From: Candidatus Hydrogenedentota bacterium
GTDB taxonomy: Bacteria; Hydrogenedentota; Hydrogenedentia; Hydrogenedentales; CAITNO01
NCBI GenBank assembly: GCA_012730105.1
Contig: JAAYBJ010000139.1
Coordinates: 1-47,972 of the forward strand
Length of the DNA stretch: 47,972 nucleotides
Direction: 5' to 3'
Numbering within the stretch: the stretch's first letter is position 1; each line of letters starts with the position of its first letter. The notes beneath the pieces were generated by a model that was not told the origin of the DNA, ran no database searches, and saw nothing but the letters and a program-made list of their open reading frames with translations. The position numbers and the translations under genes are program-made. This document shows, piece after piece, positions 33,401-41,712 of this stretch.

Positions 33401-34921
33401 CTACTTGATTTTGGCCGCGGCACGTACCTTGATTTCCGCGATTGCTCGTTCCAACACCACGTCGCGATCCTCCCTAAAAAAAGATTCATAAGCCTCAAAG
33501 GTAAGCGGAACGCGGATATCCGGTTTCACGCGGCTTTCCATCTTTCCCGAGGACGTGACGCGAATCGTGTCGGTGCTGTCCAGGAAGCGGCCAATGGGAT
33601 AAGTGATTACATGGCCGCCGGGTACGGTGACCTGGCCGCCGGGAAAACTCCAGGAACCGTCGGTGCCCGTGAAACCCATGAGGGCGACATTGGGCAGCTG
33701 ATGAAGGGAATCGGCCAGGGCTTGGCCGCTGTCACGGGTGGTATGCTGAATCAATACCATGACCGGCCCGCCGAAATAGGGGGCGCGCGGTTCAATGGTC
33801 ATGGACGCATCCTCTTTGAGCGCGAAACCGCCCTTGTCATAGTCAAAGGCGACCACGTTCCGGTAGAAAAGAGGGCGCTTCGTAAAATGGCCGGCATAGG
33901 TTACCGCCAATTGGTCCTGACCGCCCACATCCCCCCGCAGATCCAGCACCAGTCCGGCCACATCCGCTTTCAAAAACTGCTCCATGGCATTACGAAACGC
34001 CCGTGCGGGAAAGGGCATGGCCAAGGTGGCGGCATGGCAATAGATCTGGATGTACCCGATATTACCATCCAGTATCCTGGTCTCCAGCGGCGAGTCAAAT
34101 TCCGTTATGGTCTTTTTCTGCCGCGTCAGATCCTCCAGGGAACGGTAGAAATCACGCCGGGCTTCGAGCTGGGTAATCCACACCTCGTCGGATTCGGGAT
34201 TCCGAAACTTCAGAGTGGCCTTCGTGCCCGCCGGAGCGCGCGTGAGCAGGGCGCACTGTTCAAAACGTCGACATTCATCGGTGGCCGGAGGGGCATCGCT
34301 CCAAAGCAACGACGTCTGTTCCAGCGCCTCGGCAATGGGAAGCCCATTCCATGCGATGATTTCGGCGCCCCATTCGATCCCGGCCATATCGGCGAAAAAG
34401 CCCGGCTCCACCCGGACCACCACCACCCGTCCGTCATCCAGGGGCAGCATCGAAAAGCCGAAGCCGGCGCCGACAGCCGCGTCGCGGTACGCGTCGGGCG
34501 TGCTGATGCTCACGCCCGCATCGGGGATGGAATAAAGATAAGAACGCAGCGCCAAGTAATAGGCCAATTCGTCCTTTGCCTGTGAGGCCGCCTCTACCCG
34601 GGGCACATGCGTATCATATAGCGTATCCCAGTCTATACCCTTCCATTCGGAAAAAGGGTATTCGCGTACAAATTTCTGGTGCATCCCCAAAAAAGCGTCC
34701 GTCCTCGAACGGTTCTGAAAATTGCCTTCACGGTAACTTCCAAAAACTTCCTTGACCGATTCCATGGTAATTGGCGAGGCGGGCAGCGGCAGGGTAAGGT
34801 TGGTCAAGGGCAGGGTAGAGCGCGCGCAGCCCACGACCAAACCGACTGCAACAACGCATGCAAGCAGACCGAAGTCGGCCACCCGCATGCGATACATGAG
34901 TTTCACTGTAAGACTCTTCAT
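33401..34921 (-). CDS. S41-family (tail-specific-like) peptidase lipoprotein
   Basis: A 506-residue exported lipoprotein with lipobox VVGC near residue 32. After a helical N-terminal region (about 45-150), a PDZ-like segment follows (RVVVVRVEPGFFADMAGIEWGAEIIAWNG in pieces). The S41 core begins at GNIGYIQIY, with VLDLRGDVGG and VMVLIQHTTRDSGQALADSL. The last corresponds to the region with the catalytic serine, but the family's usual S-x-E pattern reads SGQ here. Activity may thus be altered. Tail-specific peptidases trim periplasmic proteins. ATG 34921 begins the signal sequence; ribosome binding site weak. No neighbour clarifies its target. Confidence 0.75.
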   Translation of the reverse strand: MKSLTVKLMYRMRVADFGLLACVVAVGLVVGCARSTLPLTNLTLPLPASPITMESVKEVFGSYREGNFQNRSRTDAFLGMHQKFVREYPFSEWKGIDWDTLYDTHVPRVEAASQAKDELAYYLALRSYLYSIPDAGVSISTPDAYRDAAVGAGFGFSMLPLDDGRVVVVRVEPGFFADMAGIEWGAEIIAWNGLPIAEALEQTSLLWSDAPPATDECRRFEQCALLTRAPAGTKATLKFRNPESDEVWITQLEARRDFYRSLEDLTRQKKTITEFDSPLETRILDGNIGYIQIYCHAATLAMPFPARAFRNAMEQFLKADVAGLVLDLRGDVGGQDQLAVTYAGHFTKRPLFYRNVVAFDYDKGGFALKEDASMTIEPRAPYFGGPVMVLIQHTTRDSGQALADSLHQLPNVALMGFTGTDGSWSFPGGQVTVPGGHVITYPIGRFLDSTDTIRVTSSGKMESRVKPDIRVPLTFEAYESFFREDRDVVLERAIAEIKVRAAAKIK

Positions 34922-34993
34922 CCGCTTATCCCGGGGACAAAACCCCATCAGCCCGAAAAAGAATTGTTGCGCCCCTGTCAGCCCCCTATTGTA

Positions 34994-35011
34994 TCATACT
35001 TTACAGTATGA
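34994..35011. promoter_or_regulatory. Inverted repeat between S41 peptidase and the methyltransferase operon
   Basis: TCATACT and AGTATGA form perfect 7-base arms around TTAC. The site lies in the divergent promoter region, 88 bases before the methyltransferase, and may be an operator. It shares the 10-mer GTATCATACT with 40259-40268. Confidence 0.4.
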
Positions 35012-35098: not shown

Positions 35099-35794
35099 AT
35101 GGCCCATAAACCCGCCTTAATGACCACAACCCTCTGGGATTTCCCCTCGCAGCAATACGGCGACGAATCGCAGGGCGATAAAAACTACCGGGGCGCTACC
35201 CCCGCCTATATCCTGTGGAACCTGCTCCAGAGGTATACGAAACCCGGCGAGCTTGTCGTGGATCCCATGGCCGGAAGCGGCACCACCCTGGATGTGGCCC
35301 GGGAACTCAAACGCCGTGCCCTCGGCTATGATGTAAATGTCACCCGTAAGGACATTTTCAACTGCGACGCCCGTAAACTGCCCTTGGAGGATGAAAAGGC
35401 CGCCTTCGTGTTTCTGGACCCGCCCTATTCCACCCATATTCATTACAGCGACGACCCGCGCTGTATCGGCAAACTAAGCGCCCATACGGCGGACTATTAC
35501 ACCGCCATGGGAGAAGTGCTCGATGAAGTTAAACGCATTCTCAAACCCGGCCGGCACATGGCCCTTTACGTAAGCGATTCCTTCCAAAAGGGCAAACCCT
35601 TCTGTCCTATCGGCTTTGAACTCTTCCAGCGGCTTCGTGAACGCTTCGAACCGGTGGATATCATTTCCGTCACCCGGCGCAACACCACACTCGACAAGGG
35701 GAACTACCACAAGGCCGCCATCGAGGGTAATTATTTTCTCCGCGGCTTCAATTACTTGTTCATCATGAAAAAGGCGGAGAAAAACAAAGGATAA
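35099..35794 (+). CDS. DNA methyltransferase (N4/N6 adenine or cytosine type)
   Basis: A 231-residue SAM-dependent DNA methyltransferase, first gene of a three-gene operon. The SAM loop DPMAGSGTT begins at Asp55 and the catalytic DPPY at 107-110, in that order. An N-terminal TPAYILWNLLQRY resembles motif X. Asp-Pro-Pro-Tyr marks exocyclic amino methylation of adenine or cytosine. The small size leaves little room for a target-recognition domain. The C-terminus (FLRGFNYLFIMKK) closes the fold. AGGA is 7 bases before ATG 35099. The helicase gene starts 15 bases after its stop. No restriction nuclease is adjacent, so it could mark self DNA for the two downstream proteins or be an orphan modifier. 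Confidence 0.83.
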   Translation: MAHKPALMTTTLWDFPSQQYGDESQGDKNYRGATPAYILWNLLQRYTKPGELVVDPMAGSGTTLDVARELKRRALGYDVNVTRKDIFNCDARKLPLEDEKAAFVFLDPPYSTHIHYSDDPRCIGKLSAHTADYYTAMGEVLDEVKRILKPGRHMALYVSDSFQKGKPFCPIGFELFQRLRERFEPVDIISVTRRNTTLDKGNYHKAAIEGNYFLRGFNYLFIMKKAEKNKG

Positions 35795-35809
35795 TTCCGG
35801 AGGAGTGGT

Positions 35810-37909
35810 ATGACTGAATGGGAAAATGCAGAGACCCTTTTGCGCTGTGCCCTCGGCAACCCTGCAGCAACATTCCGAAAAGGTCAATGGGAAGCCATAG
35901 ACCATCTTGTAAACCATAACAGAAAAATTCTCGTGGTACAGCGGACAGGCTGGGGTAAAAGCTCCGTATACTTTATCGCCACACGCATTTTGCGCGACCG
36001 GGGCAAAGGTCCCACCTTGATTGTGTCTCCCCTGCTTGCGCTGATGCGCAATCAGATTCGGGCCGCGCAGGCCCTGTCTATCCGGGCGCTCACCATTAAC
36101 TCCACAAACCGAGACGAATGGCCCGCCCTGATCGCGGCGATTCAAAACAATGAGACCGATGCCATCTTGGTGTCTCCGGAGCGCCTCGCAAACGATGAAT
36201 TTGTACAACAGGTATTGCTGCCGGCTGCGGGGCATATTGGTTTGCTGGTAGTGGACGAAGTTCACTGCATTTCAGACTGGGGACATGACTTTCGCCCGGA
36301 CTACCGCAGACTGGCAAGCATACTCAGCTTCATGCCAGTCAACATGCCTTTGCTGGGAACTACGGCCACGGCGAATAATCGGGTGCTTGATGATATTAAA
36401 GAACAACTGGGTGACTTGGTGATCCAGCGCGGCACCCTGATGCGGGAAAGCCTGGCATTACAGACGATGCGACTTTCCGATCAGTCGGCCCGTCTGGCTT
36501 GGCTCGCAGAGCACATTCCTCAACTCCCGGGAACGGGCATCATTTATACCTTAACCAGACGTGACGCGGAGCAAGTGGCGGAATGGCTACAGCAGAACGG
36601 TATTGAGGCCCGCGCCTACCACAGCAGCATCGTTTCAGAAGAATATCCTTCCTCCCATGAATACAGGCTGCACCTGGAAGAACTGTTGCTTAACAATCAC
36701 ATCAAGGTCCTTGTCGCAACCACCGCCCTGGGCATGGGATATGACAAACCGGATCTGGGATTTGTCATCCATTACCAGGCGCCGGGATCCGTTGTAGCCT
36801 ATTACCAACAAGTAGGACGAGCGGGACGTTCCATCGAACATGCCTTCGGCATCATGATGACCGGTTCGGAAGATGAGGAGATTCACGAGTATTTCCGAAA
36901 CGCGGCGTTTCCCAACGTGGCTCATGTCACTGCAATCCTGGACGCTCTTGCGACAAGTGATGGCCTGGCTATACGCGAAATTGAGCCGCGGGTGAATTTG
37001 CATTACGGGCAGATAGAGAAGGCGCTCAGTTATCTATCGGTGGAAAACCCCGCGCCTGTTCTGAAAGACGGCAACCGCTGGGTCAGGACACCGGTCTCAT
37101 TCGCGCTGGACCAAACAAAAATACAAAGATTAACCGGTCAACGCGAAAAGGAATGGCGGCAAGTCCAACAGTATATTGACACCCGGGAATGTTTGATGAC
37201 GTATTTGGCGCGGGCCCTGGATGATGCGGAGTCCCGGCCATGCGGCAAGTGCGGCAACTGTCTTGGCAGGCCGGTTGTCAGTTATTCTTTTTGTAGCGAA
37301 ACCGCCGCCAGGGCCATCCTGTATCTCAAACAAGCCGATATCCCCCTCATCTGCAAAAGATCCGCAGGCAAGAATGCATTTCCCCTGTACAGATTCAGTG
37401 GAAACTTTCCGGTAGCCCTGCGCGCGGAAACAGGCCGGATCCTGTCGCGTTGGGGCGATGCCGGATGGGGACGGATGGTGGCGGAGGATAAGCGTTCAGG
37501 CCGTTTCAGAGAGGAACTGGTGGAAGCGACCGCGGATATGATTCAGTTGAGATGGAAACCGCTGCCGGCCCCGGTGTGGATAACATGCGTCCCTTCCCGT
37601 CTGCATCCAGGTCTTGTGCCGGACTTTTGCCAACGCCTGGCCTCGCGCTTGGGGTTGCCTTTTTTGCCTGTCATTGTCAAGATACGCGACAATGGTCCAC
37701 AGAAGATGCAGCAGAACCGGTTTTACCAATGCCGCAATCTGGATGGCGTCTTTGCCGTGGAAGAAGCCGTTCCGGAACACCCCGTACTCCTCGTGGATGA
37801 TATGGTCGATTCCACTTGGACCATGGCCGTAACGGCGGCGTTGCTGTTGCAGGCCGGCAGCGGACCGGTATGGCCCCTTGCCCTCGCGAAGACCACTTCT
37901 GGAGACTGA
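35810..37909 (+). CDS. RecQ-like helicase fused to phosphoribosyltransferase (PsyrT/RqlH-like)
   Basis: A 699-residue protein. Residues 1-350 are a superfamily 2 helicase core: Gln26 of motif 0, RTGWGKSS (45-52), DEVH (149-152), the RecQ loop WGHDFRP (157-163), TTATAN, and QVGRAGR (334-340). Cysteines in PCGKCGNCLG form the RecQ zinc site. The last 120 residues are a phosphoribosyltransferase with the PRPP motif VLLVDDMVDSTWT (Asp663, Asp664). This helicase-plus-phosphoribosyltransferase layout is that of PsyrT and of E. coli RqlH, whose activity is toxic unless its partner is present. GGAGGAG is 5 bases before the start. The next gene begins one base after the stop, exactly as expected for such a pair. 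Confidence 0.9.
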   Translation: MTEWENAETLLRCALGNPAATFRKGQWEAIDHLVNHNRKILVVQRTGWGKSSVYFIATRILRDRGKGPTLIVSPLLALMRNQIRAAQALSIRALTINSTNRDEWPALIAAIQNNETDAILVSPERLANDEFVQQVLLPAAGHIGLLVVDEVHCISDWGHDFRPDYRRLASILSFMPVNMPLLGTTATANNRVLDDIKEQLGDLVIQRGTLMRESLALQTMRLSDQSARLAWLAEHIPQLPGTGIIYTLTRRDAEQVAEWLQQNGIEARAYHSSIVSEEYPSSHEYRLHLEELLLNNHIKVLVATTALGMGYDKPDLGFVIHYQAPGSVVAYYQQVGRAGRSIEHAFGIMMTGSEDEEIHEYFRNAAFPNVAHVTAILDALATSDGLAIREIEPRVNLHYGQIEKALSYLSVENPAPVLKDGNRWVRTPVSFALDQTKIQRLTGQREKEWRQVQQYIDTRECLMTYLARALDDAESRPCGKCGNCLGRPVVSYSFCSETAARAILYLKQADIPLICKRSAGKNAFPLYRFSGNFPVALRAETGRILSRWGDAGWGRMVAEDKRSGRFREELVEATADMIQLRWKPLPAPVWITCVPSRLHPGLVPDFCQRLASRLGLPFLPVIVKIRDNGPQKMQQNRFYQCRNLDGVFAVEEAVPEHPVLLVDDMVDSTWTMAVTAALLLQAGSGPVWPLALAKTTSGD

Positions 37910-37910
37910 C

Positions 37911-39200
37911 ATGAGCCTAAGCCCGAGAACACAGGCAGTATTACTCCTTACCGCATGGCTTAATAAGCCTGCTGAGGGAGAGCCAAAGCCGCTTACACCG
38001 TCCGAATGGGGGCGTTTTGCCCAATGGATGAAAGAAAAAGATATCGTCCCTGAAAGCCTGGTTGAAACAAAAAATATTACACCGCTTCTTGCGGGTTTCA
38101 TCGATCCGAGTATTACATCCGACCGGCTTAGGCGCCTGCTGGAACGTTCCGCCGCAATGGGGCTCGCCCTGGAAAAATGGCAACGCGCCGGATTATGGGT
38201 TGTAACCCGGGCGGATGCCAATTACCCCGCCCGTTTGAAAGCACACCTTGGTATAAACGCCCCGCCCCTGTTATTTGGTTGTGGAAACCGCGTCCTCCTG
38301 GAACAGGGCGGTATAGCCGTAATAGGATCCCGCAATGTGGACGTTGAAGGCCTCGCTTTCACGACCGCTCTGGCCGGCGAAGTCGCGTTACAGGGAAAAT
38401 CCATCGTATCCGGAGGCGCCCGGGGGGTTGATGAGGCGGCCATGCTTGGCGCCCTGAAAAAAGACGGCACGGTAATAGGGGTACTGGCCGACAGCCTTTT
38501 GAGGGTAGCGACTTCTGAAAAATATCGAAGTGGTTTGATGAAAAAAAACCTTGTGCTTGTGTCCCCTTTTAATCCTGAAGCGGGCTTTGATGTGGGAAAT
38601 GCCATGGCCCGTAACAAGTATATTTATTGCCTGGCGGATGCCGCCGTGGTCATTGATGCCGGGAACAATAAAGGCGGCACGTGGGCTGGCGCCGTTGAAA
38701 ATCTCAAGCAGGGGTGGGCCCCATTATGGGTGAAAGAGCATAATGACGCCACTTCCGGCAACAGCGCACTTATAAAACAAGGCGGACGTCGCCTCCCGGA
38801 AGGCGCGTTTAAAATCTCTTCTCTGATAACACCCGTTGAAAAGCCCCCCGAAGAACCCTTGCTACCCGGATTGTTCGAAGAAAAAAAGGTCGTGCCAGTG
38901 TGTTCTAAACGAGACAAAATAAGCGCGGCCGCTTCCATTAATGAGATGTCCACTGCCTACCCGGAGACGCCACAGACAACATCCTATTGCAGCCTGTACA
39001 AGTGTTTTTTGACAGCCATGAAGCACGAAACCCAAAAAACGCCGCTAAACACCGAAGAGCTACAAAAGCGGCTTACGATCACCAAGACCCAGCTTAATCA
39101 CTGGTTAAAGCAGGCGGTATCGGAAGGCCATATCAAAACATCTGGCACCCCCCCGCGGTTTCAAATTTCTATGCCCGGAAAAGAGGTTCCAAAATCGTGA
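37911..39200 (+). CDS. DprA/Smf-like protein with winged helix (PsyrA/RqlI-like)
   Basis: A 429-residue protein. After a helical N-terminal region, a Rossmann-like DprA domain spans about 100-310. It includes YPARL (105-109), IGSRN (138-142), SGGARGVD (167-174), and ALADA-like DAAVVIDAGNNKGGTW, where DprA binds DNA or nucleotides. A linker rich in Glu and Lys follows, then a C-terminal winged helix of about 70 residues (TEELQKRLTITKTQLNHWLKQ in part). Genomic DprA serves transformation, but this copy follows the helicase-phosphoribosyltransferase by one base with GGAG 6 bases ahead, the arrangement of antitoxin PsyrA/RqlI. It probably restrains the helicase. The base composition looks AT-richer than the neighbourhood. 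Confidence 0.88.
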   Translation: MSLSPRTQAVLLLTAWLNKPAEGEPKPLTPSEWGRFAQWMKEKDIVPESLVETKNITPLLAGFIDPSITSDRLRRLLERSAAMGLALEKWQRAGLWVVTRADANYPARLKAHLGINAPPLLFGCGNRVLLEQGGIAVIGSRNVDVEGLAFTTALAGEVALQGKSIVSGGARGVDEAAMLGALKKDGTVIGVLADSLLRVATSEKYRSGLMKKNLVLVSPFNPEAGFDVGNAMARNKYIYCLADAAVVIDAGNNKGGTWAGAVENLKQGWAPLWVKEHNDATSGNSALIKQGGRRLPEGAFKISSLITPVEKPPEEPLLPGLFEEKKVVPVCSKRDKISAAASINEMSTAYPETPQTTSYCSLYKCFLTAMKHETQKTPLNTEELQKRLTITKTQLNHWLKQAVSEGHIKTSGTPPRFQISMPGKEVPKS

Positions 39201-39217: not shown

Positions 39218-40225
39218 TCAGTGTGCAGCGGAGCAGGATGCAATGGCGTCAATGGCCTGCAGTTCCTCCAAGGTAAAATCCATATTCTCCAGTGCGGCAA
39301 CGCATTCCTGAATCTGTTGCGGGGTACGGGCGCCGATGAGGGCGCTGGTGACGCGAGGATCGCGCAGGGTCCAGGCCAACGCCATCTGGGCAAGGCCCTG
39401 TCCCCGTTTCAACGCGAGTTCATGCAGGCGGCGCACCTGGTCCAGTTTGGACGCGGTAATTTGTTCAGGCTTGAGGAACCCGTCCGGGTCGGCCGCGCGC
39501 GAATCCCGGGGCATGGGGTTGGCGGGATCGAGATATTTCTCCGAAAGCAGCCCCTGCTCAAGCGGCGAGAATACAATGACGCCGGTTCCGTAAGCTGCCG
39601 TATGTTCCAGCAGGTCCGTTTCAATCCAGCGGTCCAGCATGTTGTACCGGGGCTGGTGAATCGTGAGGGGCGCCCAGCCGCGACGCCGGACCAGTTCCGA
39701 TGCCCGTACAAACAACGGGCCTCGGTAACTGCTCACTCCGGCATACAAGGCCTTGCCCTGGCGCACAATCAGGTCCAGGGCGCTGAGAGTTTCCTCCAGG
39801 GGCGTATCCGGGTCGGGCCGGTGGGAATAGAAGATGTCCACGTACTCCACGCCCATACGCCGCAGCGACTGGTCCAAACTGGCCACCAGGTATTTCTTGC
39901 TGCCCCATTCCCCGTAAGGCCCCGGCCACATGTAATACCCGGCCTTGGAGGAAATGATCAGTTCATCGCGGTGCGCTGAGAAATCTTCTTTTAAAATACG
40001 GCCGAAGCGTTCCTCCGCGCTGCCGGGTTCCGGCCCGTAGTTGTTTGCCAGGTCGAAATGGCAGATGCCCAGGTCAAAGGCCGTGCGCAGCATGGTCCTG
40101 CAATTTTCATGATCGGCACGGGTGCCGAAATTATGCCACAAGCCCAGGGAAATGGCCGGCAGTCGCAGGCCGCTCCGGCCGCAGCGGCGGTACTGCATCG
40201 TTGCGTATCGGTCAGGATTGAACAT
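39218..40225 (-). CDS. Aldo/keto reductase, YghZ-like (L-glyceraldehyde 3-phosphate reductase)
   Basis: A 335-residue NADPH-dependent aldo/keto reductase. The catalytic tetrad is visible as Asp58 and Tyr63 in FDLANNYG, Lys94 in ISSKAGY and His135 in FYSHRPD. PGPYGEWGSKKYL and SLDQSLRRMGVEYVDIFYSHR (given in part) match the YghZ/AKR14 branch, which detoxifies methylglyoxal and reduces L-glyceraldehyde 3-phosphate. The C-terminal SALIGARTPQQI binds the cofactor phosphate. The length is normal. AAAGGA is about 8 bases before ATG 40225. It is divergent from metY and convergent on the defence-like operon with a 17-base gap. Confidence 0.9.
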   Translation of the reverse strand: MFNPDRYATMQYRRCGRSGLRLPAISLGLWHNFGTRADHENCRTMLRTAFDLGICHFDLANNYGPEPGSAEERFGRILKEDFSAHRDELIISSKAGYYMWPGPYGEWGSKKYLVASLDQSLRRMGVEYVDIFYSHRPDPDTPLEETLSALDLIVRQGKALYAGVSSYRGPLFVRASELVRRRGWAPLTIHQPRYNMLDRWIETDLLEHTAAYGTGVIVFSPLEQGLLSEKYLDPANPMPRDSRAADPDGFLKPEQITASKLDQVRRLHELALKRGQGLAQMALAWTLRDPRVTSALIGARTPQQIQECVAALENMDFTLEELQAIDAIASCSAAH

Positions 40226-40256: not shown

Positions 40257-40269
40257 CAGTATCATACTG
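40257..40269. promoter_or_regulatory. Palindrome between aldo/keto reductase and metY
   Basis: CAGTAT and ATACTG form perfect 6-base arms around a single C, 32 bases before the reductase start. A second small palindrome CACAC-CCA-GTGTG lies at 40278-40290. Either could be an operator for the divergent pair. Confidence 0.35.

Positions 40270-40309: not shown

Positions 40310-41712
<1,403 letters not shown>

Follow-up and report, generated by a model that had tools for sequence, protein, structure and literature searches.

A PsyrTA (RqlH-RqlI) pair, very probably a horizontally acquired cassette, behind an old methyltransferase gene in a Candidatus Hydrogenedentota genome

The window analysed here, a whole stretch of 47,972 nucleotides, is contig 86 of a 5.6 Mb MAG assembly of 343 contigs. 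The closest relatives of this MAG belong to Candidatus Hydrogenedentota, as do the MAGs that gave the best matches of ORF1 among named genomes. Three open reading frames follow one another on the plus strand, at 35099-35794 (ORF1, 231 aa), 35810-37909 (ORF2, 699 aa) and 37911-39200 (ORF3, 429 aa). The intergenic gaps of 15 bp (ORF1/ORF2) and 1 bp (ORF2/ORF3) agree with the original prediction, in which the three genes had been read as one defence-like operon encoding a DNA methyltransferase, a RecQ-phosphoribosyltransferase and a DprA-winged helix protein. The locus comprises the following features:

33401-34948, minus strand: S41-type peptidase-like gene (named from sequence), divergent from the methyltransferase gene and its ancestral left neighbour
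35099-35794, plus strand: solitary SAM methyltransferase (N6_N4_Mtase family), a chromosomal resident outside the defence pair
35799-35805, plus strand: PsyrT ribosome-binding site GGAGGAG, read from sequence
35810-37909, plus strand: PsyrT / RqlH, a helicase of the RecQ family that has a zinc site and ends in a phosphoribosyltransferase domain, the presumed toxin/effector
37911-39200, plus strand: PsyrA / RqlI, a Rossmann protein resembling DprA and ending in a winged helix, the presumed antitoxin/sensor
39218-40225, minus strand: aldo/keto reductase-like gene (named from sequence), native-like in composition
40322-40360, plus strand: conserved metY promoter box, which marks the right-hand end of the spacer that ancestrally separated methyltransferase and metY
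40411-41712, plus strand: metY-like O-acetylhomoserine (thiol)-lyase gene (name and start from sequence), the ancestral right neighbour of the methyltransferase gene

No restriction-modification, BREX or Hma partner (cognate nuclease, PglZ, BrxC) was found in the window operon, the flanks of which are the S41-like peptidase, aldo/keto reductase-like and metY genes.

It was verified that ORF2 and ORF3 are, as judged from their sequences, clearly an ordinary PsyrTA / RqlH-RqlI pair, a known bacterial toxin-antitoxin and anti-phage system, which is the identification that had been proposed. In PADLOC, the PsyrT model matched ORF2 with 960.6 bits (residues 5-699) and the PsyrA model matched ORF3 with 490.6 bits (residues 1-419), so that both components of the Pseudomonas syringae system are matched at full length and the difference lies in the chromosomal neighbour only. 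ORF2 carries a RecQ core (Walker A QRTGWGKS, DEVH and QQVGRAGR) whose helicase motifs are conserved in the family alignment, a zinc site of four cysteines and, at its C-terminus, a phosphoribosyltransferase (PRT) domain with the PRPP-like motif LLVDDMVDSTWT. All these elements had been foreseen and are intact, with the amendment that the family has DSxW where the canonical PRPP motif has T-G; the Asp pair of the site (D663-D664 of the window PsyrT) is invariant in a 10-sequence alignment. ORF3 is assigned to DprA/SMF by Pfam (PF02481, 133.7 bits) and ends, in the alignment, in a winged-helix-like segment, which bears out the fold expected for the third gene. The full-length RecQ-PRT protein is thus followed directly 3', on the same strand and after 1 bp, by its DprA-like partner, as in other PsyrTA / RqlHI pairs.

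The RqlH-RqlI pair of extraintestinal E. coli presents the same order, helicase-PRT before DprA-like, with adjacent or overlapping genes and the same RecQ core and PRT domain (PMC4670107), and two E. coli copies share 58-59% (PsyrT) and 44-50% (PsyrA) identity with the window pair. A previous study demonstrated that the toxicity of E. coli RqlH depends on the PRT domain and requires D663, that direct contact by RqlI restrains RqlH, that RqlH has SOS effects, and that rqlH and rqlI are co-transcribed as an operon without a methyltransferase (PMC4670107). This E. coli operon stands alone between gntU and yhgN, whereas the window pair lies 15 bp behind a methyltransferase gene. Additionally, rqlH is annotated as frameshifted and rqlI as intact in E. 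coli FDAARGOS_943 and O157:H7 FRIK2069 (L105, L106), which is the pattern to expect if toxin loss comes first.

For ORF1, the methyltransferase part of the predicted 'DNA methyltransferase' stands and the DNA substrate is not established. The protein matches the N6_N4 DNA methylase family (PF01555, 82 bits) and has the motif order X-I-IV (DPMAGSGTT ... DPPY), with DPPY invariant in 22 aligned sequences and motif I conserved, and it is devoid of a target-recognition domain. Its predicted fold is mostly confident past residue 30 (mean pLDDT 79), and the top solved-structure matches in Foldseek were archaeal Trm11 tRNA m2G10 methyltransferases, with a TM-score to the query of 0.55-0.57. Since a target-recognition domain is absent and the nearest solved folds are those of Trm11, the DNA label is unproven, and the substrate may be DNA or RNA. 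The likeness to Trm11 / TrmG10 extends to motif I followed by DPPY and to a weak TIGR01177 match; however, ORF1 has no THUMP domain, shares 15-17% identity with these enzymes and falls, by sequence family, with the N6_N4 DNA methylases.

Homologues of this methyltransferase occur in about 32 of 60 related genomes (E below 1e-70), with identities to the window copy of 84-87% within the genus, about 72-81% within the family and mostly 61-74% within the order. In the tree, the window copy groups with its genus mates and then with the family, matching the species groups. Neither PsyrT nor PsyrA was found near the gene in any of 23 clear homologous loci elsewhere (57-88% identity), which come from Hydrogenedentota, Sumerlaeota, Phycisphaerae and further groups; some of these loci are short or are cut by a contig end close to the gene. 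Most of the about 32 relatives with the methyltransferase likewise have it unaccompanied by PsyrTA. On this comparative evidence, the methyltransferase (METHYLTRANSFERASE) is an old, vertically inherited chromosomal resident, unrelated to PsyrTA. A phage or plasmid origin of the gene was considered and rejected: no viral contig matched it, and the plasmid and phage methylases that matched are unrelated and did so only weakly, at about 25-44% identity and in many cases over part of the length.

The ancestral arrangement survives, as an empty site, in G008 and G013, which are two species of a sister genus: there the S41-like peptidase gene on the minus strand and the methyltransferase gene on the plus strand are followed, after about 125-140 bp, by metY. 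Both metY genes are 85-86% identical to that of the window, and the gene after metY is likewise conserved. In the window, PsyrTA and the aldo/keto reductase-like gene lie between the methyltransferase gene and metY, and the latter insert is also missing from the corresponding gap of both G008 and G013. The S41-like homologue adjoins the methyltransferase gene in these two genomes and in three of the same genus (G001, G002, G003), which retain this junction and have different genes downstream. Additionally, window positions 40322-40360 align with the methyltransferase-metY spacer of G013 in a 39-bp ungapped match (score 48, against 26 for the best of 100 shuffles), and a consensus promoter match at 40310-40338 overlaps this metY promoter box; the spacer of G008 gave no DNA match to the window above chance. 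Gene order thus indicates that the ancestral downstream neighbour of the methyltransferase is metY. One of the two sister-genus genomes, G008, has PsyrTA on another contig.

Composition separates the pair from its neighbours. The block was correctly described as AT-richer, with GC contents of 54.5%, 55.1% and 52.6% for ORF1, ORF2 and ORF3 against about 58-65% for neighbouring genes. GC3, on the other hand, is low only in PsyrT (0.61) and PsyrA (0.54), relative to 0.65-0.79 in the neighbours, and lies in the native range in the methyltransferase (0.68) and aldo/keto reductase-like (0.73) genes; the idea that the methyltransferase is compositionally foreign was dropped, its GC being low but its GC3 native. 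The transfer hinted at from base composition holds for PsyrTA, with its low GC3 and discordant tree, and does not extend to the methyltransferase, with its GC3 and vertical tree. No target-site duplication, mobile element or long flanking repeat was found at the insertion.

A 9-bp palindrome, GTATCATAC, occurs twice in the window, at 34991-34999 and 40259-40267, against 0.11 copies expected. Its two sites lie in the S41-like/methyltransferase intergenic region and upstream of the aldo/keto reductase gene, both outside the methyltransferase-PsyrTA junction, and it was not found at the methyltransferase loci of relatives. Given this position and its operator-like form, it was rejected as a mobile-element footprint, and it is possibly a candidate shared operator.

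Within the phylum, 6 of 68 genomes carry true PsyrT; the counts in three other phylum samples were 6/395, 5/284 and 7/294, and none was found in viral contigs and phage records. In the PsyrT tree, the copies of the phylum split into at least four separate lineages. The window copy pairs with that of G004, from another genus (67%), whereas the genus mates G002 and G003 carry copies only 50-52% identical to it, and two genomes outside the phylum, from two other groups, are closer (59-60%) than those of the genus mates. The methyltransferase and PsyrT trees are discordant, with no sign of shared ancestry, and horizontal acquisition of the window PsyrTA is strongly supported by these sequence comparisons. 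The methyltransferase is present in each of the phylum's six PsyrT genomes, but this co-occurrence says little, because five of them belong to a family in which most members have it; in the other five PsyrT-bearing genomes, the methyltransferase is on a different contig from PsyrT. As these relatives are MAG contigs, linkage was assessed within contigs, and longer-range linkage is possible. RecQ-like helicase cores were also observed within open frames of about 1,700-1,980 aa in G000 (C308:33706-34779, L002), G002, G004, G009, G010, G012 and G023. Of the PsyrT ORFs of L142 and L143, one is extended at its N-terminus by about 460 aa that matched nothing in PADLOC, and the other is interrupted by an in-frame TAA.

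The neighbours of PsyrT were surveyed at 24 further loci, taken from four samples at the level of the phylum and from a single order. They were ordinary or unidentified (e.g. ftsK, MscS-like, parB, MYG1) at 15 of the 19 loci outside the home phylum and at all five inside it. At the other four outside, PsyrTA lies inside methylation-based systems: between PglXI and BrxHI (L130) or between BrxC and PglX (L141) of BREX, after a fused BrxC-PglXI remnant (L135), and after HmaC of Hma (L132). Two further cases were seen in named records, one in BREX (L098) and one in type I restriction-modification (R-M) loci (L097, L102 and L103). In three E. coli records inspected, the order is hsdM-hsdS-[PsyrTA]-hsdR, and the PsyrTA DNA of these records (at least 99% identical) is present in 53 of 5,426 genomes, other E. 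coli carrying rqlHI alone as described above. An Acinetobacter plasmid has the order pglX-[PsyrTA]-DUF262-pglZ. PsyrTA is thus directly behind hsdS in the type I system (E. coli, NZ_CP023853.1) and directly behind pglX in BREX-1 (Acinetobacter pYUSHP14-1). In these two systems the methyltransferase has its restriction or BREX partners beside it in a complete defence operon, whereas that of the window is solitary and housekeeping-like. A previous study drew recQ and dprA within Acinetobacter BREX without using the name PsyrTA (PMC10117892), and no paper naming PsyrTA nesting in BREX, Hma or type I R-M was found in the literature searched.

The arrangement is very probably explained by a horizontally acquired two-gene PsyrTA cassette inserted directly 3' of an old, unrelated methyltransferase gene and before metY, a reading carried by the gene identity, the intact motifs, the horizontal history and the ancestral empty site. 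What speaks against it is that the 15-bp gap and the Shine-Dalgarno sequence of PsyrT look like those of a true operon, and that the insertion bears no target-site duplication or mobile element. The same tight spacing on one strand, together with the likely co-transcription and the embedding of PsyrTA in methylation-based systems elsewhere, is what favours a functional system of three genes, in which the methyltransferase would mark self DNA and PsyrTA would attack or report unmodified DNA. Such a third component is nevertheless very unlikely and unsupported, because the methyltransferase is not conserved beside the pair in any relative seen, which was one of the refuting conditions set with the original prediction, is vertically inherited and has metY as its ancestral neighbour, with PsyrTA in between; the two stand side by side neither at any of the 23 loci nor in any other of the phylum's five PsyrT genomes besides that of the window, most carrier relatives lack the combination, and an enzyme without a target-recognition domain may act on RNA. 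Nor is a DNA-repair or transformation module in place of a defence or toxin-antitoxin pair at all likely, and it is the least probable of the readings considered: the RecQ and DprA homologies and the SOS effects of RqlH would suit it (PMC4670107), but the distribution is sporadic and horizontal, the pair is nested in defence operons, and its known toxicity is relieved by the partner.

The nested loci raise a different question, since the neighbourhood of methyltransferase and PsyrTA could be selected and not accidental, given that in other lineages, too, PsyrTA comes just after a methyltransferase gene or a partner gene from a BREX, Hma or type I R-M system. PrrC offers a precedent: lodged in a type I R-M locus, it is triggered by inhibition of its host system. 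On this model, PsyrTA would be a guard, a guest module of methylation-based defence operons that fires on inhibition of the host system, and the window copy a stray or reduced case. The nested loci argue for such a role, but most surveyed loci are not nested, and the chromosomal E. coli rqlHI stands alone, which makes it unlikely as an account of the window, though less so than the other alternatives. A broader version is more doubtful still. In it, insertion of PsyrTA behind methyltransferase genes (BREX pglX, type I hsdMS, Hma and the orphan of the window) would be recurrent because PsyrTA senses methylation status or stands guard over methylation-based immunity, and the window would hold a minimal form with a captured resident methyltransferase.

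Under the inserted-cassette explanation, PsyrTA would be transcribed by read-through from the methyltransferase promoter into the cassette, and the 15-bp gap makes co-transcription of methyltransferase and PsyrTA likely, as an incidental outcome. By analogy with the known pairs, PsyrT would act as a RecQ-like helicase whose PRT domain is toxic to the cell, and the DprA-like PsyrA would bind and restrain it. Invasion by foreign DNA or phage replication intermediates would presumably lift this restraint, and released PsyrT may then cause growth arrest or DNA damage, stopping the infection in the manner of abortive infection in the host.

These findings indicated that a tight same-strand neighbourhood can mimic both an operon and a new defence system, and that a single empty-site comparison removes the third gene. 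The nesting of PsyrTA within BREX, Hma and type I R-M operons, seen in several lineages, is a useful by-product and renders a guard role of PsyrTA directly testable.
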